Assembly: GCA_018650285.1 (NCBI GenBank)
Contig: JABIGF010000020.1
Location: 124,001-188,000 of the forward strand
Direction: 5' to 3'
Length of the DNA stretch: 64,000 bases
Source: Methanobacteriota archaeon
GTDB taxonomy: Archaea; Thermoplasmatota; Poseidoniia; Poseidoniales; Thalassarchaeaceae
Positions within the stretch are counted from its first letter, which is position 1, and the number at the start of each line of letters is the position of its first letter. Below the pieces are notes generated by a model. The model saw only the letters and a list, made by a program, of their open reading frames with translations, was not told the origin of the DNA and did no database searches. Shown in pieces: positions 1 through 60,056 of the stretch. The position numbers and the translations under genes are program-made.

Positions 1-733
1 AATCAGGTGCTGTGTGATTATCTCCTGCCCAGAAAAAAATGTTAGCATTAAATCCGTCTTCATTGATTGAGTATGAATCTAGACTGAGTGCAGGTTGACC
101 CGAATTTTCAACACGGGCGATGGAATTTTCAAAATCACCGCAGTAACCACGATATGGATTACTTAAGTCAAAGCGGTAGTCATTATCTCCGATAACAAAC
201 TTGTAGCAATACATTCCTTCTTGAAGAGAAAGGCTGGTGGACCAAGTTCCTGAACCACTATCAAAGATAAGGTCTGTGTGAGTGTCCCAATCCCATTCAC
301 CGATAATGCTCACATTACTCGGTTGCGCTTCACTTGGCAGGGGTTGCCAAGTATAGGTGGTTTGAGTTTCTCTAACTCTTACTGCAGGATTTTCCACAGT
401 CACTGTTCCAGTCATTGATGAGTGGAATGAGCATTCATAGTTGTAGGTGCCTAGGGCCGTAAATGTGTAGGTATGACTACTTCCTGTGGATAGAGTACTA
501 GAATCAAATGAATCCGGTCCACTAGTGCTAGTAGCAGTATGAGAACTTGAATCTTGATTTGTCCATGTAATTGAATCTCCAACATCTATTGTGATGGTTT
601 GGGGGCTGAATGCAAAATTTTGGATGTTGATATTGTGTGTTACGGACTTGGAATCAATTGCATTAACACTAGCTAATGGGATAATTGCTAGCATCAGCAA
701 GGACGCGAGAAACCAAGACTTACCACTTTTCAC
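1..733 (-). CDS. Secreted cupredoxin-domain protein, probable alpha-amylase N-terminus (partial)
   Basis: The gene runs off the left edge; only the first ~244 residues are visible and it is absent from the ORF track. It starts at a GTG four bases after a GGTGA Shine-Dalgarno that also contains the stop codon of the MalK gene, so the two are translationally close. A signal peptide (hydrophobic core about residues 7-24) is followed by a blue-copper-like domain (about 30-115) with a histidine in 'SSSHTATS' and the Cys-His-Met ligand set in 'ECSFHSSM'. After that comes a carbohydrate-enzyme-type Ig-like module ('GEWDWDTHTDL', 'GMYCYKFVIGDNDYRFD'), as commonly seen before alpha-amylase barrels. 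Position downstream of a maltodextrin importer supports an extracellular amylase. The catalytic barrel itself is not in the window, so the enzyme class is inference. Confidence 0.65.
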   Translation of the reverse strand, partial: MKSGKSWFLASLLMLAIIPLASVNAIDSKSVTHNINIQNFAFSPQTITIDVGDSITWTNQDSSSHTATSTSGPDSFDSSTLSTGSSHTYTFTALGTYNYECSFHSSMTGTVTVENPAVRVRETQTTYTWQPLPSEAQPSNVSIIGEWDWDTHTDLIFDSGSGTWSTSLSLQEGMYCYKFVIGDNDYRFDLSNPYRGYCGDFENSIARVENSGQPALSLDSYSINEDGFNANIFFWAGDNHTAPD

Positions 734-52841: not shown

Positions 52842-53426
52842 TTATTCGTCAAGAGCATTGACAGCATCTTCTAGTTCTTGTTCCATCTCTATTTGTTCGA
52901 TTTGAAAGTTTGCTGGGCCAAACGGGTCCCTTCCATCTTCAAGCATTGTTAGCATTCGGTGGCGTGGGGCCCATGAAAGATGAACATATATTGGGCCAGA
53001 TGCAAGCATCAATATCCATGCCAACATTTCTGGAATGGCAACAGCAATCCCCATCCAATTCCCAAGTAGTATGGCAAATCCAACGAATGGCATGGTATAG
53101 ATCAGCACTCTTGGTGGTGCTATTGGTGGGCGAGGCAAAATCTTGGCTACAATTGCAGAAAATTGGCCTGCGATAGCAAGGCCAAGCGCCACACTCAAAC
53201 CTCTGAAAGATGCTTCATTGAACCACGCTTCAAGATTCCATTCATTGTGATATCCAATTGGTAAAATTAGGGCGATGGTGACTAGGCACCCATAGAATGC
53301 ACCAACTATTGCTGGTTGGCTAATAATTAACGGCCACGCTGCAAATCTTTGAGAGAGTGAAGAGCCAAGAAGCATCTCTTGTTGCGAGTCATCAAGCGAC
53401 GTCAAACGCTCTCGCCACGCTTCCAT
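52842..53426 (-). CDS. Small multi-pass membrane protein of unknown function
   Basis: 194 residues. I moved the start to the ATG at 53426 (MEAWRERLTSLDD), five to six bases after GGAGAG. Four hydrophobic helices occupy about residues 35-155, with 'LPRPPIAPPRVLIYTMPFVG' in the middle. Both ends are cytoplasmic-looking, and the acidic C-terminus 'QIEQIEMEQELEDAVNALDE' may form a short coiled coil. No family recognised. It converges with the oxoamine synthase gene, with a two-base gap. Confidence 0.75.
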   Translation of the reverse strand: MEAWRERLTSLDDSQQEMLLGSSLSQRFAAWPLIISQPAIVGAFYGCLVTIALILPIGYHNEWNLEAWFNEASFRGLSVALGLAIAGQFSAIVAKILPRPPIAPPRVLIYTMPFVGFAILLGNWMGIAVAIPEMLAWILMLASGPIYVHLSWAPRHRMLTMLEDGRDPFGPANFQIEQIEMEQELEDAVNALDE

Positions 53427-53485
53427 AACGTTCTCTCCGTTCAATAAGACGCATTAACATTGACCAATGAATCGAGGTCAATGTC

Positions 53486-54211
53486 CTAATATTCCTCTTC
53501 TTTCAAGTTGCCTGCAGTAATATCTCGCGTCGAATCTATTTCCGCTCTACGCATCTTTCTGAGCAGCGCACCTGGTTGTGGGCTCATTGCCCCTGAGACA
53601 GAAGTATCTTGCCAAACTCTCTTGGTAGGATAGAACTCTTCATCTTCACGGATGCGTGCATCTTCAATTGGGTCTTCAAATCCATCATCACGTTCTTGTG
53701 CGTCACGAAATGTTAGTGCTTGATTAATGTGTGAAATCACTTTTCTAATATTTTGGTTAAGTGGGTAATTCCAGTACAATATTATCTTCCCATTCATGTT
53801 ATCTTTTTTGATAAGAGTGCGTGCAAGAATAGGGTCGCCGACTGCAAATAAGCGGGCTTTTTGTGGTATTTCGTGCCATTTCGTGCCATCGCTGACCCAC
53901 ACTGAAGTGTCATCAATACTTTCCCCAGGGTGCCAAGGGTGCCCTGTTCCAATTGCTACAAGAGCCAATATTTCGTTTCTTTTTACATTCTTCAAAAGCC
54001 GTTCCCATAGTATTGCTGAGGCAATTGCAACTACAATAATTTGTAATAATATATTGGAAAAGTTGACGAGTGTTAGTATCTTAAAGCAGAAGAAAATAGC
54101 AAAAATTCCGATGATTATTGTGAATACTGCATTGATGATATTTTGTCGTTGAATGCCGGCAATATCACTGTTGACCGACCAGAGGCTGGCGTTGTCAGGT
54201 AGGTCGGCCAT
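53486..54211 (-). CDS. Membrane protein of unknown function with cytoplasmic domain
   Basis: 241 residues from the ATG at 54211 (MADLPDNASLW). Two adjacent hydrophobic helices near the N-terminus ('IINAVFTIIIGIFAIFFCF', 'NILLQIIVVAIASAILWERL'), then a ~150-residue soluble part containing a small beta-rich stretch ('SVWVSDGTKWHEIPQKARLF', 'KIILYWNYPLN') and a charged, disordered C-terminus. No family recognised. It is divergent from the rhomboid-like gene. Confidence 0.7.
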   Translation of the reverse strand: MADLPDNASLWSVNSDIAGIQRQNIINAVFTIIIGIFAIFFCFKILTLVNFSNILLQIIVVAIASAILWERLLKNVKRNEILALVAIGTGHPWHPGESIDDTSVWVSDGTKWHEIPQKARLFAVGDPILARTLIKKDNMNGKIILYWNYPLNQNIRKVISHINQALTFRDAQERDDGFEDPIEDARIREDEEFYPTKRVWQDTSVSGAMSPQPGALLRKMRRAEIDSTRDITAGNLKEEEY

Positions 54212-54325
54212 GCTACCCGTTAGAGGTAGACATACATTCAATTTGCGACCGAGTTGTTCAAGTCAGATGGCAATTCTCGACAAAGTGATGTTGCCGCACA
54301 TCTTTCTCTTCAAGAGGGTGAATTG

Positions 54326-55051: not shown

Positions 55052-55181
55052 AATTGATAGTTTCATCGCCTCAATTCGCTTCTTTCTGGTGTTTTTGATT
55101 GGGTCGTGTAATCGCGCGCAGGCGGTGTGCGCGAGGGCCACGTTCAAGAGGGGGTCAAGTAAGACGGGGGTGAGGATAGGT

Positions 55182-57590
55182 ATGGCCGAACTACCCAAGG
55201 GCGTTACCAAAGAGGTTCGCAGAGGCGGGTCTGGGGTGCTTGAGTTACTCCTCATTGACTTTGATAGAGAAGGTGGAGACGGCTACATTCGTATCGAGCA
55301 AGCAACTGAACCCGCAACCGTCGCTCAATTGGTCATCATAGGTGGCTCACCAGCAATGGCACTCTTTGAATTCCAAACTTTGTTGATGGGTCAAGCAGCG
55401 CTAGATGAATTGCGAACAAGCGCTAGGGCAGAAGATTCTAGAATTTCAGTTCACACAGAAGTTGATTTTAGTTTGATTGCAGATTTACATCCTGAGGCTA
55501 AATTGCATTTCACCGATGAAGATGTGATAACAGGGCAGAAAATTGAGGGTTGGATAATCAACACAAAAAATGATTCTGATTGGTGGCGCTCTAAACAAAA
55601 GCGTGAGTGGACGATGAGCGAATTATCTTCTGATGAGGAGATTGAAGAAACAGTTGCCCCTTCTGTGATAATTGACTACCATTCTGGTGAAGAATTAGAG
55701 GCGGGTTGTAGTTACCTAATTGATGACCAGACGCCAGATTCAGTGATGAAGATTGCAACTCATCTTGCGACAATCGGCCACCCACTATTGGTGATATCAA
55801 GGAATTCTCCACAGCGCCTGTCTGATGATTTTGGTTTACCCGCGTCGCTTTGTTACTGGCTAACTGAAAGAGAAGTAGAGGGTGTTCAAACAATTACTCC
55901 TGGTTTGGAAGCAGTACGACGTGTTTGCGATGAGTTTCTTTGGGCTTCAACTCGTTCTGTAATAATTATTGATGGCGTGGAATACCTTAGTGGAATCCAT
56001 GGTTTTGGTCCATTATTGGGGATGTTGAGGGATCTGTTTGATGGCATTCAGACATCTGATGACATCGTTTTGATACCTGCTGATTTGGATGTATGGGATG
56101 AAAGGGAACGCACAATGCTAGGGCGCGAATGTGACCTCATCTCAGCAGGTCTTGCTGCAGAATGGGCTGAGCGCCCAGCAGTTGTTGAGGGGCATTCATT
56201 TTGTCAAGAGGTTGCAGGGGCAACCATTCCTGAGCCAATACAAATTGATGTTTTGACAGTGGCTGAGGACGATTTCAAAGCAGCGGCTCACCGATTATTG
56301 TCTCCAACTGAACAAATATCTGTAAAAGAGGAAAGTCAACCAGTTAGTGCAAATGGTACAACTGCTGCTCATTTTTCTCAGCCAGTAACTGATTTTTCAG
56401 CTAGAAGTTTGATTGATGAGATGAAGAATGAAGATGATGGTGTAATTATTGCTGAAAAGGAAACGCCGCCGATAGAAAGCGAAGGCGTAATTTCCAATGA
56501 AAGTGATGATGGTAGCGATGAATTCAAACTTCCAGAATGGGCAACTGCTCCATCTGCAAATATGGGAGATGAGCCAATACCAACTCAGCCTGTAGTTGTT
56601 GAATCTGTTGAGCAAAGTCCTACACCTAATCAAACTCCTGAATGGTTTGAATCGGCAAGAAAGGAGGCTCTTGGAGAATCTACAAGTTTCTTGGAAGATA
56701 ACGATTCTCAGATTGAGCCAATAGAGGAGACACTTTCAGTAGAAATTGATGAGCCTAGTGGACCAAAACAACCAACGGTCAACTATCGCTCAAAGAGAGA
56801 ACGAAAGATTTCAGTTCCACACAAACCGGATATATTGCAACTTGAAAAAAGTTCAATGCATTATGCCGCATCAAATAGTAAAGCGGTTGAAACTGAGTTA
56901 GATGAGCCGGGTTTTGAGGCGATTGACCGCACAGTCACAGCACTTAATTCCAAGAGAGACCAGTTCCGCGAAATTGGTGAATGGCAAACAAATGAAGAGC
57001 GCGATTGGCAAGTTCTTGCTACTGATGAGATGGGGGCGGCAGTGGATAATTCACGTCCAGTTAGGCATCATGTGAAGAAAGAGGAGTCATCTTCGGTTTC
57101 ACGATTGCATGTTCGCCAATGGGGTGCTGCATCCAATAGTGCTTCTACAAATACGGCCTATGGTTCCACTCCAGAAGATATTGAAAATCCAAAAATGAGA
57201 GAATTTGCAACAAGAGCCCAGAAGTCAAAGACATTGATTCAGAAACTTGTTGGTTCAGAGTTAGAAGCACTTTATGCTGACCGTAAACAGATGGTTAGTG
57301 CATCATCAATAGATTTGGAAATATTAGAGCGAATTGATGCCTTGGGTAAGAAAGGCCATCCAATTCGTGAATTGGTTGAGAGGATTGAAGCAAATTCCAA
57401 AGAGGGTACAAAATTTTTGTCGGTACTGGAGAAAAGGTCAGTCCAAGTTGATGATTTAATCAAACGATTGAATGTTCAAGAAGAGCGTTCTGTAATTGAT
57501 TCAAAGGTGGCGGCAAAATATAGGAAGAATCTCATTAATTTTGAACAAATAAAGGAAGTAGAATCATTACTTTCAGATTTTGAAGGTTGA
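55182..57590 (+). CDS. DUF835-domain protein with long disordered linker and C-terminal coiled coil
   Basis: 802 residues from the ATG at 55182, which follows GGTGAGG. Residues ~15-110 form an archaeal accessory domain ('DGYIRIEQATEP', 'VIIGGSPAMALFEFQTLLMG') that recalls DUF2226. Residues ~177-320 are DUF835, a RecA/KaiC-like fold without a P-loop that is common in archaea ('PLLVISRNSPQRLSDDFG', 'YWLTEREVEG', 'SVIIIDGVEYLSGIHGFGPL'). A ~330-residue acidic, Ser/Pro-rich linker follows, then helices at ~650-800 with coiled-coil character ('LIQKLVGSELEALYADRKQM'). It heads an apparent three-gene unit with the DnaA-like ATPase and a cysteine-cluster protein. DUF835 functions are largely unknown. 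Confidence 0.82.
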   Translation: MAELPKGVTKEVRRGGSGVLELLLIDFDREGGDGYIRIEQATEPATVAQLVIIGGSPAMALFEFQTLLMGQAALDELRTSARAEDSRISVHTEVDFSLIADLHPEAKLHFTDEDVITGQKIEGWIINTKNDSDWWRSKQKREWTMSELSSDEEIEETVAPSVIIDYHSGEELEAGCSYLIDDQTPDSVMKIATHLATIGHPLLVISRNSPQRLSDDFGLPASLCYWLTEREVEGVQTITPGLEAVRRVCDEFLWASTRSVIIIDGVEYLSGIHGFGPLLGMLRDLFDGIQTSDDIVLIPADLDVWDERERTMLGRECDLISAGLAAEWAERPAVVEGHSFCQEVAGATIPEPIQIDVLTVAEDDFKAAAHRLLSPTEQISVKEESQPVSANGTTAAHFSQPVTDFSARSLIDEMKNEDDGVIIAEKETPPIESEGVISNESDDGSDEFKLPEWATAPSANMGDEPIPTQPVVVESVEQSPTPNQTPEWFESARKEALGESTSFLEDNDSQIEPIEETLSVEIDEPSGPKQPTVNYRSKRERKISVPHKPDILQLEKSSMHYAASNSKAVETELDEPGFEAIDRTVTALNSKRDQFREIGEWQTNEERDWQVLATDEMGAAVDNSRPVRHHVKKEESSSVSRLHVRQWGAASNSASTNTAYGSTPEDIENPKMREFATRAQKSKTLIQKLVGSELEALYADRKQMVSASSIDLEILERIDALGKKGHPIRELVERIEANSKEGTKFLSVLEKRSVQVDDLIKRLNVQEERSVIDSKVAAKYRKNLINFEQIKEVESLLSDFEG

Positions 57591-57636: not shown

Positions 57637-59580
57637 GTGAAAGAGATGAGTCAGCGAACCCAACTCCAACAACAATTGGAGAAGAGCCGCCGTCTTCTTG
57701 CTGAGAGAAAGTCAGAAAGAGATTCAAAAGAAGGTGCAGAACAAGTTGTACATTCTTCACTTGGCCGTTTGATACGGGAAAGAAATATGCCAGCAGATAC
57801 GAATCCATTTGATGGCCCATTCCTTGCATCTACATCGGATGCGGTGCAGAAGAAAACAGGGACATTCGGGTCTATTGCTGCTGAAAGGATTCAGCGAATG
57901 AGGCAAGGTGCAGAAGCAACGGCTCCTATGATTGACCGTGATCAGGCAGGTGTCCCAATTTCTTTGGATACGCCCGCTTGGATATATTCAGAGGTTGTTG
58001 ACCCAGAGTCTAGCGATAGTGCGACCCCAGTTTGGAGAGATGTGCTTTCAAAACAGAGAGGTCATTCTCGGCCGAGCACTAGTGCTAGGGATGCGCATGC
58101 AGAACTAACCGATTCAACCCAGTCAAACGATTCATCCCAAATGGTGGCACTGGCTGAAGAAATTGCATTAGGGCGGCCAAAGTGGCCTAGTATTTTCATG
58201 CCAAACCCTCTTTATTCTTGGGGTAATTGGCAAGTTGGCCCAAATAACAGGATGGCTAGTACTGCGGCTAGAGAGATAATCACTTATCCAGCGGAGAGAG
58301 CAAATCCGCTCCTTATTTTGGGCAGTGATGGAGTTGGTAAGAGCCACTTGCTTCAAGCGTTAGGTTCCTCACTTTACACAAGATTGCCTGATAGAGAGAT
58401 TCGCATTATTGCGGGTGGTGATATCCCTGCTCAACTGCCAGATGATTGGGTGGATGCAATACAGGGATGCAGTGCGTTACTTGTGGAGGACATCCACCAG
58501 ATGGAGGGGGCGACTCAAGATGACCTTGGCAAGGTTGTAGATTATTGTTTAAATCTCGGCGTTCAAGTGGTACTAACATCTGATGGTGACTCAAATTTCT
58601 CCACTATTCTAAACAGTGCAATTAGTGGTGCTGTAGAGGTTAATATTTCCAATCCTGATGCGATGACAATTGTGTTATTTTTGCGCAATCGTGCATTAAT
58701 TCGTGGCATTTCACTCTCTGATGGACAATTGGGCGCCATTGCTGCCGCGGCTAGTGATTGGCGCAAGGCAGCATCTGGTTTTGAGCAGGTAGCTATAGCC
58801 ATTGAGGCTGGTGCTGAACCATTAGGTGTTTCAGATATTGAAACAATTCTTGGTGGTGAAGAATTACCGATGAGAGGCGATGATACTTTGGTTGCTTGGG
58901 ATAGCGAACAGACCGGTCAAAAAATTGTTCGAGAGGTGCTTGATGATGTATTACCCCGTGGCGCAATGCCAAATATTGACTTGGTTACTGAATTGGAATC
59001 AAAGGTAGATGACTATGTGGCACCTAATTTGATGCCTGAGTCTAGTCGAGATGCAGTGGATGCATTAATTGATAGACACCTTGGTAGAGAAAAGAGTGCC
59101 TTAGAAGAGGCAAGGTCTCGATTAGAAGATGAAGCAGCACCAACGAATTTAGAGGTGCCTAGAGCCGATTTACCTCATATTGACTTGATGAGTGACGGCT
59201 TCCTTGATAGGTTAGAATCAAGATTACAACGTCATCAAGATGAATTATTTTCATTACATAATGAAATGGAAACCATTGCAGGACAATTAGATGATGCCGA
59301 GCCTAAAGAATTGGTCGCAATGGCCGACAGAATGCTTGAAATTGAGCGCGAATTATCCCGCATTTCAAGATTAGATGCCGGTGAAGCACTCAAATCAAGA
59401 AAGAAGCCATCTCGTCCATACGAACCAGAAATTATTGAGGAATATGTCCCAGAAGGCGAGTGGGATATTGACGAGGAATCAATATCTGCTGATGACCTCC
59501 TTGAACCAAAAGCAGTTCTCCGTCCAATAAAGGTCTTGAAACCAATATTTTTGGATGACCGAGAAGGCGAAGAAGAATGA
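57637..59580 (+). CDS. DnaA-like AAA+ ATPase with flanking coiled coils
   Basis: 647 residues (GTG start; an ATG at 57646 is also well placed behind GGTGA). Residues ~193-390 match the bacterial initiator DnaA AAA+ core: 'YSWGNWQVGPNNRMASTAAR', Walker A 'GSDGVGKS' (229-236), Walker B 'LLVEDIHQM' (281-289), sensor 1 'VVLTSD' (311-316), and a sensor-2-like Arg376 in 'SDWRKAASGF'. The box-VII arginine finger (Arg in the 'SRF' segment of DnaA) is replaced by 'SAI'. The C-terminal DnaA-box-binding helix-turn-helix is absent; instead there is an acidic linker and a coiled coil (~535-600). The N-terminal ~180 residues begin with another coiled coil. The protein is probably cytosolic. A replication-initiation role is not implied: archaea use Orc1/Cdc6. 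Confidence 0.8.
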   Translation: MKEMSQRTQLQQQLEKSRRLLAERKSERDSKEGAEQVVHSSLGRLIRERNMPADTNPFDGPFLASTSDAVQKKTGTFGSIAAERIQRMRQGAEATAPMIDRDQAGVPISLDTPAWIYSEVVDPESSDSATPVWRDVLSKQRGHSRPSTSARDAHAELTDSTQSNDSSQMVALAEEIALGRPKWPSIFMPNPLYSWGNWQVGPNNRMASTAAREIITYPAERANPLLILGSDGVGKSHLLQALGSSLYTRLPDREIRIIAGGDIPAQLPDDWVDAIQGCSALLVEDIHQMEGATQDDLGKVVDYCLNLGVQVVLTSDGDSNFSTILNSAISGAVEVNISNPDAMTIVLFLRNRALIRGISLSDGQLGAIAAAASDWRKAASGFEQVAIAIEAGAEPLGVSDIETILGGEELPMRGDDTLVAWDSEQTGQKIVREVLDDVLPRGAMPNIDLVTELESKVDDYVAPNLMPESSRDAVDALIDRHLGREKSALEEARSRLEDEAAPTNLEVPRADLPHIDLMSDGFLDRLESRLQRHQDELFSLHNEMETIAGQLDDAEPKELVAMADRMLEIERELSRISRLDAGEALKSRKKPSRPYEPEIIEEYVPEGEWDIDEESISADDLLEPKAVLRPIKVLKPIFLDDREGEEE

Positions 59581-60056
59581 CGAAATGGAATAATCGATTT
59601 CGTCCACCTAAGGATGAGTGGTGGAGTAAGGGTATTGATTTCACCTGTCTTCCTGAATGTGGACGCTGTTGTGACGAACCTGGAGGGATTGTCTATCTTT
59701 CACGACAAGATGCCGAGAGAATTGCAGAACATCAAGAGATGAGTTTAGTCTCATGGCTCGAAAAATTTTGTCGGACTACTTACGACGGGAGATTTGTCTT
59801 AGAATCAAAACCTAGTGATGGGAGATGCATCTATCTAACTAGTGAGAAAGTTTGTACGATTTACGAAGTTAAGCCCGCTCAGTGTTCGGCCTTTCCTTTT
59901 TGGGGGGAGAATTTAGTCACAGACCGCGCATGGCAGAAAACCAAAACGATATGTCCCGGAATTGATCACCCTGATGCAATTATGATTGATGGTGATATGA
60001 TAAAACTGAAACTTGAGGCAGACAAAGCGGCTGAGAAAGGTTTCCGAATGGTGTGA
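59577..60056 (+). CDS. YkgJ-type cysteine-cluster protein
   Basis: 159 residues, overlapping the ATPase stop by ATGA, so translation is coupled. The CxxC..CC arrangement 'CLPECGRCCDEPGG' near residue 24 and later cysteines in 'RCIYLTSEKVCTIYEVKPAQ' and 'KTICPGI' define the zinc/iron-sulfur-binding YkgJ (CxxCxxCC) family. The biochemical role of the family is not established; a metal cluster is expected. Its linkage to the DUF835/DnaA-like pair suggests a shared process. Confidence 0.87.
   Translation: MTKWNNRFRPPKDEWWSKGIDFTCLPECGRCCDEPGGIVYLSRQDAERIAEHQEMSLVSWLEKFCRTTYDGRFVLESKPSDGRCIYLTSEKVCTIYEVKPAQCSAFPFWGENLVTDRAWQKTKTICPGIDHPDAIMIDGDMIKLKLEADKAAEKGFRMV

Follow-up and report, generated by a model that had tools for sequence, protein, structure and literature searches.

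A DnaA-type ATPase domain without domain IV, encoded beside a DUF835 gene in Poseidoniales archaea, with a probable role outside replication initiation

We analyzed a stretch of 64,000 nucleotides (hereafter the window) from contig JABIGF010000020.1, positions 124,001 to 188,000, of a Methanobacteriota archaeon assigned to the Thalassarchaeaceae (Poseidoniales, Thermoplasmatota; assembly GCA_018650285.1). It encodes a protein, P0001, whose core is a divergent bacterial-type DnaA domain III, and its DnaA ancestry is well supported. In textbooks, DnaA and Orc1/Cdc6 set bacterial replication apart from archaeal replication. The reading that we lean towards, with modest confidence, is that P0001 descends from an anciently captured DnaA ATPase and now belongs to a complex with a DUF835 protein, as a subunit that binds nucleotide and acts as a switch or scaffold, not as a replication initiator. 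Judged from its sequence and that of its relatives, it probably has a signalling or scaffolding role rather than one in replication initiation. The idea of nucleotide-gated signalling or scaffolding comes from the combination of a putative sensor-like N-terminal domain (N-domain), an inactive RecA-type domain and a DnaA ATPase, and from relatives that look membrane-anchored.

P0001 carries a DnaA domain III

In a Pfam search, residues 192-318 of P0001 matched Bac_DnaA (PF00308) with an E-value of 5e-16 and 59.8 bits against a cut-off of 23, and the match began at profile position 4, in the box I/II region. The second-best family, AAA_16, reached 20.4 bits. Neither the DnaC/IstB family PF01695 nor the Cdc6 C-terminal winged helix PF09079 matched P0001 at E up to 1; two other genes in the genome carry PF09079. 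With the NCBIfam models, P0001 scored 77.6 bits for DnaA (TIGR00362) and 37.0 bits for Hda (TIGR03420), far under the respective equivalog cut-offs of 343.9 and 194.8, and 16.7 bits for IstB (NF038214; cut-off 200). All five sequence matches in the PDB were DnaA.

We then compared folds, using an AlphaFold2 model of P0001 built from 22 Poseidoniales sequences. The predicted local distance difference test score averaged 85-92 per ten-residue block over residues 181-410; the linkers were poor, and the predicted template modelling score of the whole chain was 0.42. Against B. subtilis DnaA the model gave a Z score of 24.4 and a root-mean-square deviation of 2.0 over 221 residues (range 187..408). 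Lower structural matches were Hda (18.4), RFC (16.7), RuvB (16.4), Orc1/Cdc6 (15.6) and DnaC (15.5), and DnaA and Hda also stood on top of the Foldseek list. An earlier note on this DNA had taken the core for bacterial DnaA domain III and had suggested a search with PF00308 and PF08299 and a structure comparison. Both put DnaA in the lead, and no AAA+ clade such as Orc1/Cdc6 or DnaC/IstB did better. The note's label "DnaA/Hda-type" holds for DnaA; Hda fits less well, both in bit score and in Z score.

The Walker A, Walker B and sensor 1 motifs and the loss of the box VII arginine finger, all named in that note, were recovered in our domain alignment (Table 1). Pfam gave no match in P0001 to domain IV (PF08299) or domain I (PF11638) at E up to 1. 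As the note had it, an acidic linker beside the ATPase and a C-terminal coiled coil are present instead of domain IV, and the predicted model has C-terminal helices at residues 470-498, 512-551 and 556-577. P0001 is a single copy in its own genome (2.10 Mb, 28 contigs, 88.6% complete). Its named sequence relatives come from assemblies labelled "Candidatus Poseidoniales archaeon" and "Euryarchaeota archaeon".

Related ATPases are spread over Thermoplasmatota

The earlier note had pictured a DnaA-type ATPase captured in one archaeal chromosome. The DnaA type stands, but the family is spread over much of the phylum, as PF00308 was found at E 1e-5 in 128 of 389 sampled genomes. By hand count, 11 of the 128 have only a match that starts at profile position 33 or beyond and looks like the DnaC/IstB type. 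One more, the Poseidoniales assembly G332, holds a full-length bacterial dnaA with domains I, III and IV (L003), most likely on a foreign contaminant contig. After removal of these, 116 genomes remain. PF08299 exceeded its cut-off in one of the 389 genomes, G332, and not in the genome of P0001; a search at E 0.001 found it in none of the 203 genomes with completeness of 90% or more and contamination of 5% or less.

In a second sample, centred on another class, 83 of 150 genomes had PF00308, including G489 and G494, which are single contigs. The fused copies in these two exclude a binning error for those genomes. Among 14 control genomes, PF00308 was over the cut-off in Methanocaldococcus jannaschii and not in Haloferax, Sulfolobus or Methanosarcina.

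We read the architectures from 30 loci and ran Pfam on ten of their proteins, plus six others that were either fused or members of a pair. In the commonest form, which is about 590-870 amino acids (aa) long, the N-domain is followed by helical repeats, sometimes a zinc ribbon, then a DnaA domain III complete with its lid, and DUF835 at the C-terminus. In one fused protein (L004), PF00308 matched at 5e-67 and DUF835 at 4.8e-25, and its ATPase aligned with B. subtilis DnaA at 293 bits over residues 294-525, which is the whole ATPase with lid.

Other forms have no DUF835. Two proteins (L007, L011) join a DnaA domain to a hydrophobic segment and a part that resembles fn3/purple-acid-phosphatase-N; a short form of 416-426 aa has an N-terminal coiled coil (L016, L017, L019, L021, L023); and in L002, L005 and L006 the DnaA domain is flanked by long SMC-like helical repeats on one side and by zinc ribbons at the C-terminus. 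The open reading frames (ORFs) of these last three, 840-963+ aa, run past the piece of sequence read, and the open frames are 1213-1419 aa. The genes at L007:1255-2856 and L011:1255-2844 have a signal-like start and the DnaA domain at the far end, perhaps making them membrane-bound DnaA ATPases. The L023 protein starts with MGLFDWFKK, perhaps an amphipathic membrane anchor. At L104, a gene of the short-form type adjoins an RDD membrane protein gene and a TtuA-like PP-loop gene.

P0001 is encoded in a unit with an N-domain/DUF835 protein

The gene directly upstream of P0001 carries PF05763 (DUF835), and the same parts form one polypeptide in related archaea, so the unit with a DUF835 protein that had been proposed for P0001 is borne out. 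Of the 23 Poseidoniales loci, all but L084 (22) have a partner ORF immediately before the DnaA-like ORF, in the same orientation; because L033 and L070 are one contig, the pairing amounts to 21 of 22 distinct loci. Zero gap or overlap separates the two ORFs in 17 loci.

When the profile of 22 partners was aligned with that of 32 fused proteins, the probability was 99.9 and the E-value 1.5e-34. In this alignment, partner residues 33-352 pair with residues 11-724 of a fused protein (L030), skipping just the helical and DnaA stretch. A hidden Markov model (HMM) of the N-domain, built from fused proteins only, matched 21 of 22 partner ORFs, a set that counts one contig twice; the remaining one (L069) is a truncated ORF. 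The same HMM matched none of ten stand-alone DUF835 paralogues. DUF2226 matched 6 of the 24 members of the N-domain alignment (best E 0.00048), and the window copy had no match. The C-terminal helices of the partner aligned weakly with the helices of the fused proteins (probability 10.7).

The presence of the N-domain, DUF835 and DnaA ATPase on one polypeptide in relatives provides a gene-fusion (Rosetta-stone) link between P0001 and its partner, whose products probably form one complex. P0001 fits a Thermoplasmatota DnaA-DUF835 family that we define here by its architecture, with domain III, no domain IV, and a unit with N-domain and DUF835, here as two adjacent genes.

We propose the following course of events. 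An ancestor of these archaea would have acquired a bacterial-type DnaA domain III with lid but without domain IV, or would have stripped off domain IV later. In Thermoplasmatota the captured ATPase may have become the motor or switch of a protein in which a DUF2226-like N-domain and helical repeats precede it and DUF835 follows. Poseidoniales have the ATPase gene separate and directly downstream of the N-domain/DUF835 gene, and there the two products most likely act as one complex. ATP bound by the DnaA domain would set the conformation of this complex, and the N-domain and DUF835 may carry the signal or the partner contact. The fused relatives, which keep the arginine finger, could hydrolyse ATP through self-assembly; the Poseidoniales protein, which retains chiefly the ATP pocket, would act as a nucleotide switch or scaffold with slow hydrolysis or none, unable to form a DnaA-type filament on DNA.

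A broader version of this proposal stands about even in our judgement. It holds that DnaA-derived ATPases without domain IV, fused to sensory, membrane, zinc-ribbon or coiled-coil modules, form a phylum-wide class of general signal-transducing ATPases without any part in origin recognition, which in Poseidoniales would have degenerated to a switch or scaffold with a DUF835 partner.

Catalytic residues are lost to varying degrees, and close relatives of the gene are under purifying selection

The domain alignment comprised 88 sequences, of which 10 were bacterial, 55 from other Thermoplasmatota and 23 from Poseidoniales. The Walker A lysine was kept in all 10 bacterial and all 55 other Thermoplasmatota domains and in 17 of the 23 from Poseidoniales; the remaining six have arginine (five) or cysteine (one). 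The arginine finger was present in 9/10, 49/55 and 0/23, respectively, and its loss is confined to Poseidoniales plus two further lineages. For the sensor-2 arginine the counts were 10/10, 50/55 and 12/23. Hence the sensor-2-like arginine pointed out in the earlier note does exist in P0001 (Arg376) but is not a conserved feature. The first Walker B acid was D or E in all 88 domains, and the second Walker B Asp was present in 20 of 23 Poseidoniales domains.

We also inspected the positions that contact single-stranded DNA (ssDNA), which we take to be V211, K243 and R245 of E. coli DnaA. The K243/R245-type positions were both basic in 4 of 10 bacteria, in 8 of 51 other Thermoplasmatota (families f24 and f43 set aside), in 0 of 4 members of f24 and f43, and in 0 of 23 Poseidoniales. 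As only 4 of 10 bacteria have the basic pair, its loss is a soft mark. The stretch of the initiator-specific motif (ISM), from strand 2 to Walker B, spans 23-28 residues in Poseidoniales, compared with 32 in bacteria. Together, the loss of the arginine finger and of the ssDNA-contact residues and the shorter ISM make a DnaA-like filament or ssDNA stretching by P0001 unlikely. Polymer or partner remodelling, the job tentatively offered in the earlier note, found no direct support, and a DnaA-type polymer is unlikely without the finger. The loss of the finger, of the ssDNA-contact residues and, in some genera, of the Walker A lysine suggests that the Poseidoniales protein is slow or non-hydrolysing.

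Close relatives of the P0001 gene are under purifying selection. Three unsaturated pairs out of five gave ratios of nonsynonymous to synonymous substitution rates (dN/dS) of 0.098, 0.152 and 0.141 for the whole gene, and the ATPase domain gave 0.08 to 0.12 in relatives; dS was saturated in both tested pairs that include the window gene.

Could nucleotide have ceased to matter altogether, leaving the DnaA fold as a mere docking surface for the DUF835 protein? Such a pure pseudo-ATPase scaffold would account for the replaced lysines, the poorly conserved sensors 1 and 2, the universal loss of the finger in Poseidoniales and the low dN/dS. We nevertheless regard it as doubtful, because most Poseidoniales domains keep the lysine and the second Walker B Asp, and P0001 itself has an intact Walker A and the Walker B acidic pair.

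The unit is absent from many Poseidoniales genomes and lies far from the cdc6 genes in a closed genome

Among 193 Poseidoniales genomes, 115 have the DnaA-like gene and 114 the partner; both occur in 111, neither in 75, the DnaA-like gene only in four and the partner only in three. In nine of nine loci lacking the pair, the KBL and citrate synthase genes are still neighbours or nearly so, the DUF835, DnaA-like, c5 and CxxCxxCC genes (Table 1) are gone from the locus, and c6, a small gene described below, is kept in five. The Poseidoniales lineages without the unit have small genomes.

Two Orc1/Cdc6 genes were present in all six genomes examined, including that of the window. In the closed genome G015 the DnaA-like gene lies at 1.52 Mb and the cdc6 genes at 1.83 and 0.70 Mb, a distance of about 308 kb or more, and we rejected a link of the DnaA-like gene to the origin on this ground.

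These data bear on whether P0001 regulates replication or the chromosome, through an Hda-like action on Orc1/Cdc6, the sliding clamp or gyrase, with the DnaA fold docking on the replication machinery. We consider this unlikely. For it speak the nearest families, DnaA and Hda, the basic residues at both ISM contact positions in 8 of the 51 non-Poseidoniales proteins, and the position of the fused gene near thiC and a divergent gyrB-gyrA pair (clusters 13, 18 and 17) in six loci (L089, L090, L091, L093, L094 and L100; thiC, gyrB and gyrA were identified in L089 only). In bacteria, dnaA and gyrB are classic neighbours. However, P0001 has no DNA-binding domain, the ISM is shorter and the basic pair gone in all 23 Poseidoniales, the Hda score falls far below its cut-off, the closed genome shows no cdc6 linkage, 75 of 193 Poseidoniales genomes have neither gene, and the gyrase neighbourhood was not found among the Poseidoniales loci. 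The gyrB of L089 holds an intein (PF14890).

The archaellum was a tempting partner system, since almost all Poseidoniaceae with an archaellum also have the gene. Of the 193 genomes, 124 carry archaellin (PF01917), 101 of them together with the DnaA-like gene; 23 genomes have archaellin only and 14 the DnaA-like gene only, the latter including all four sampled genomes of the window's genus. With 14 and 23 mismatched genomes, we rejected the archaellum as a simple partner.

Origin of the Poseidoniales pair

In a maximum-likelihood (ML) tree of the 88 DnaA domains, the 23 Poseidoniales sequences formed one clade (ultrafast bootstrap 100) inside the DUF835-fused group. They adjoined L097/L098 (ultrafast bootstrap 96), which have also lost the finger and sensor 2; the branches of both are long. 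The simplest reading, and the one we favour though it is not proven, is a single capture in an ancestor that was then inherited vertically; the N-domain and DUF835 common to the partner and the fused proteins speak for it.

Several results weigh against this reading and against the tie between P0001 and its partner. In the approximately unbiased (AU) test, neither a placement of Poseidoniales outside the fused clade (p 0.111) nor a grouping with bacterial DnaA (p 0.207) was rejected; the c1 constraint tree was obtained with the --fast option, and its likelihood may be understated. In a tree of DUF835 only, the partners formed their own group and were not nested in the fused proteins, so a simple fission of the fused gene is not supported. 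The domain order of the partner (N-domain, DUF835, helices) also differs from that of the fused proteins, and plain fission does not explain the two-gene form. Some of the partner genes are split or interrupted by stop codons. The co-loss of the pair may have been a single event in one lineage; given this and the small genomes, it is no proof of function. Finally, PF03692 and the DnaA-like gene occur together in 112 of 193 genomes, with three exceptions on either side. As PF03692 tracks the DnaA-like gene equally closely, co-occurrence alone does not single out DUF835.

The AU values and the DUF835 tree leave some room for a separate capture, in which Poseidoniales would have taken a bacterial DnaA independently and the gene would have come to lie beside the DUF835 gene by chance or selection. 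We hold this to be very unlikely. The ML tree nests Poseidoniales with L097/L098, the partner has the N-domain and DUF835 just as the fused proteins do while the stand-alone paralogues lack the N-domain, and a meeting of the same three domains in one unit would be an improbable coincidence.

Scarcely credible is the alternative that P0001 belongs to another AAA+ clade (Orc1/Cdc6, DnaC/IstB or RFC) or is bacterial contamination taken for archaeal DnaA: its motifs are common to AAA+ domains generally, G332 does hold a bacterial dnaA, and partial matches from profile position 33 on resemble DnaC/IstB in some families, but P0001 matches from position 4, DnaA ranks first in Pfam, NCBIfam, PDB sequences and fold, one locus with archaeal synteny recurs in more than 20 assemblies, and fused copies sit in the closed single-contig genomes G489 and G494. 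We thus rejected bacterial contamination as the source of the window gene and accepted it as likely for the G332 dnaA. A viral origin was likewise rejected, as no viral contig matched the P0001 patterns in one scan.

Comparison with known systems

Like DnaA, P0001 has an AAA+ core with lid, Walker A and B, sensor 1 and a box I/II motif, at 22-24% identity. Unlike DnaA, it lacks domain I, domain IV and the arginine finger, has a shortened ISM without the contact residues, and resides in a host with Orc1/Cdc6. With Hda it shares a DnaA-type AAA+ domain without domain IV and a similar fold (Z 18.4). It differs from Hda in scoring under the Hda cut-off, in its long acidic and coiled-coil flanks and in the lost finger; Hda needs its arginine finger.

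DUF835 (PF05763) is listed as an inactivated KaiC (iKaiC) among archaeal signalling proteins (Galperin et al. 2018, PMC5847659), and in known archaeal architectures it is coupled to receiver and PAS signalling domains. The partner of P0001 and the C-terminus of the fused relatives have this domain in common with those proteins; here, unlike there, it is joined to a DnaA ATPase, and the word DnaA occurs 0 times in the main text of PMC5847659. Archaeal AAA+ proteins labelled DnaA-like have been described as SSV-type ATPases and viral primase fusions (arCOG07960, arCOG07809; PMC4158269). P0001 resembles them in this label, but according to the available text of PMC4158269 those are virus-associated genes of mobile elements, whereas the genes of the P0001 family sit at syntenic loci on chromosomes. 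In the portions available, reviews of archaeal replication present DnaA as a bacterial protein (PMC11880632, PMC5333045), and the accessible open-licence literature yielded no paper on an archaeal DnaA-DUF835 family, nor any on DUF2226.

What we see is an AAA+ clade already known, here with a new architecture in a host domain new to it, and probably with a new job. If a DnaA ATPase is widespread in an archaeal phylum and almost never comes with domain IV, the initiator's engine would prove to be a portable module, open to use in other pathways. The graded series, from intact fused proteins through loss of the finger to loss of Walker A, offers a test bed for a DnaA ATPase without an origin. 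It also follows that PF00308 matches in archaeal assemblies are not simply bacterial contamination.

Features of the window and neighbouring genes

The features discussed above are collected in Table 1. The GTG start of P0001 has GGGAG on its 5' side.

Table 1. Position of the DnaA-like gene, its motifs, its partner and its neighbours in the window
Feature	Position	Strand	Remarks
DnaA-like AAA+ gene (P0001)	57637..59580	+	ORF; 647 aa; GTG start
DnaA domain III with lid (P0001 residues 187-408)	58195..58860	+	VIA-align to B. subtilis DnaA
Walker A GSDGVGKS (P0001 residues 229-236)	58321..58344	+	Domain alignment
Walker B LLVED (P0001 residues 281-285)	58477..58491	+	Domain alignment
Sensor 1 VVLTSD (P0001 residues 311-316)	58567..58584	+	Domain alignment
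Box VII Ser-Ala-Ile (P0001 residues 327-329)	58615..58623	+	Ala328 replaces the arginine finger
Sensor-2 position Arg376 (P0001)	58762..58764	+	Arg in 12/23 Poseidoniales
C-terminal helical/coiled-coil part (P0001 residues 470-577)	59044..59367	+	Sits where DnaA has domain IV
Upstream partner gene	55089..57590	+	833 aa as called; likely start Met32, 55182
Partner N-terminal DUF2226-like domain (residues 34-143)	55185..55517	+	HMM from fused proteins only, E 3.9e-14
Partner DUF835 domain (residues 205-352)	55701..56144	+	PF05763 8.4e-18, 64.9 bits, cut-off 33.1; fused-protein HMM E 1.4e-31
Neighbour c5	53486..54241	-	251 aa; two probable membrane segments on visual inspection; no Pfam family over the cut-off
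CxxCxxCC protein (PF03692)	59577..60056	+	Overlaps the P0001 stop codon

The c5 gene is divergent to the pair and kept beside it in most loci; it is absent from the locus where the pair has been lost. The c6 gene (52842-53444) encodes a small membrane-like protein like c5, with no Pfam family above the cut-off, and is likewise divergent beside the pair across Poseidoniales. The PF03692 gene adjoins the pair in most Poseidoniales, in varying orientation. Most Poseidoniales with the unit have two PF03692 genes, and genomes without it nearly always have neither.

At L069/L032 two ORFs, of 488 and 327 aa, make up the DUF835 partner, owing to a frameshift or an assembly error. A second DUF835 protein of about 290-350 aa, without the N-domain, occurs in many Poseidoniales (for example L160, at G000:C20:71184-71483), and at L160 the DUF835 is followed by a helical repeat of similar style.

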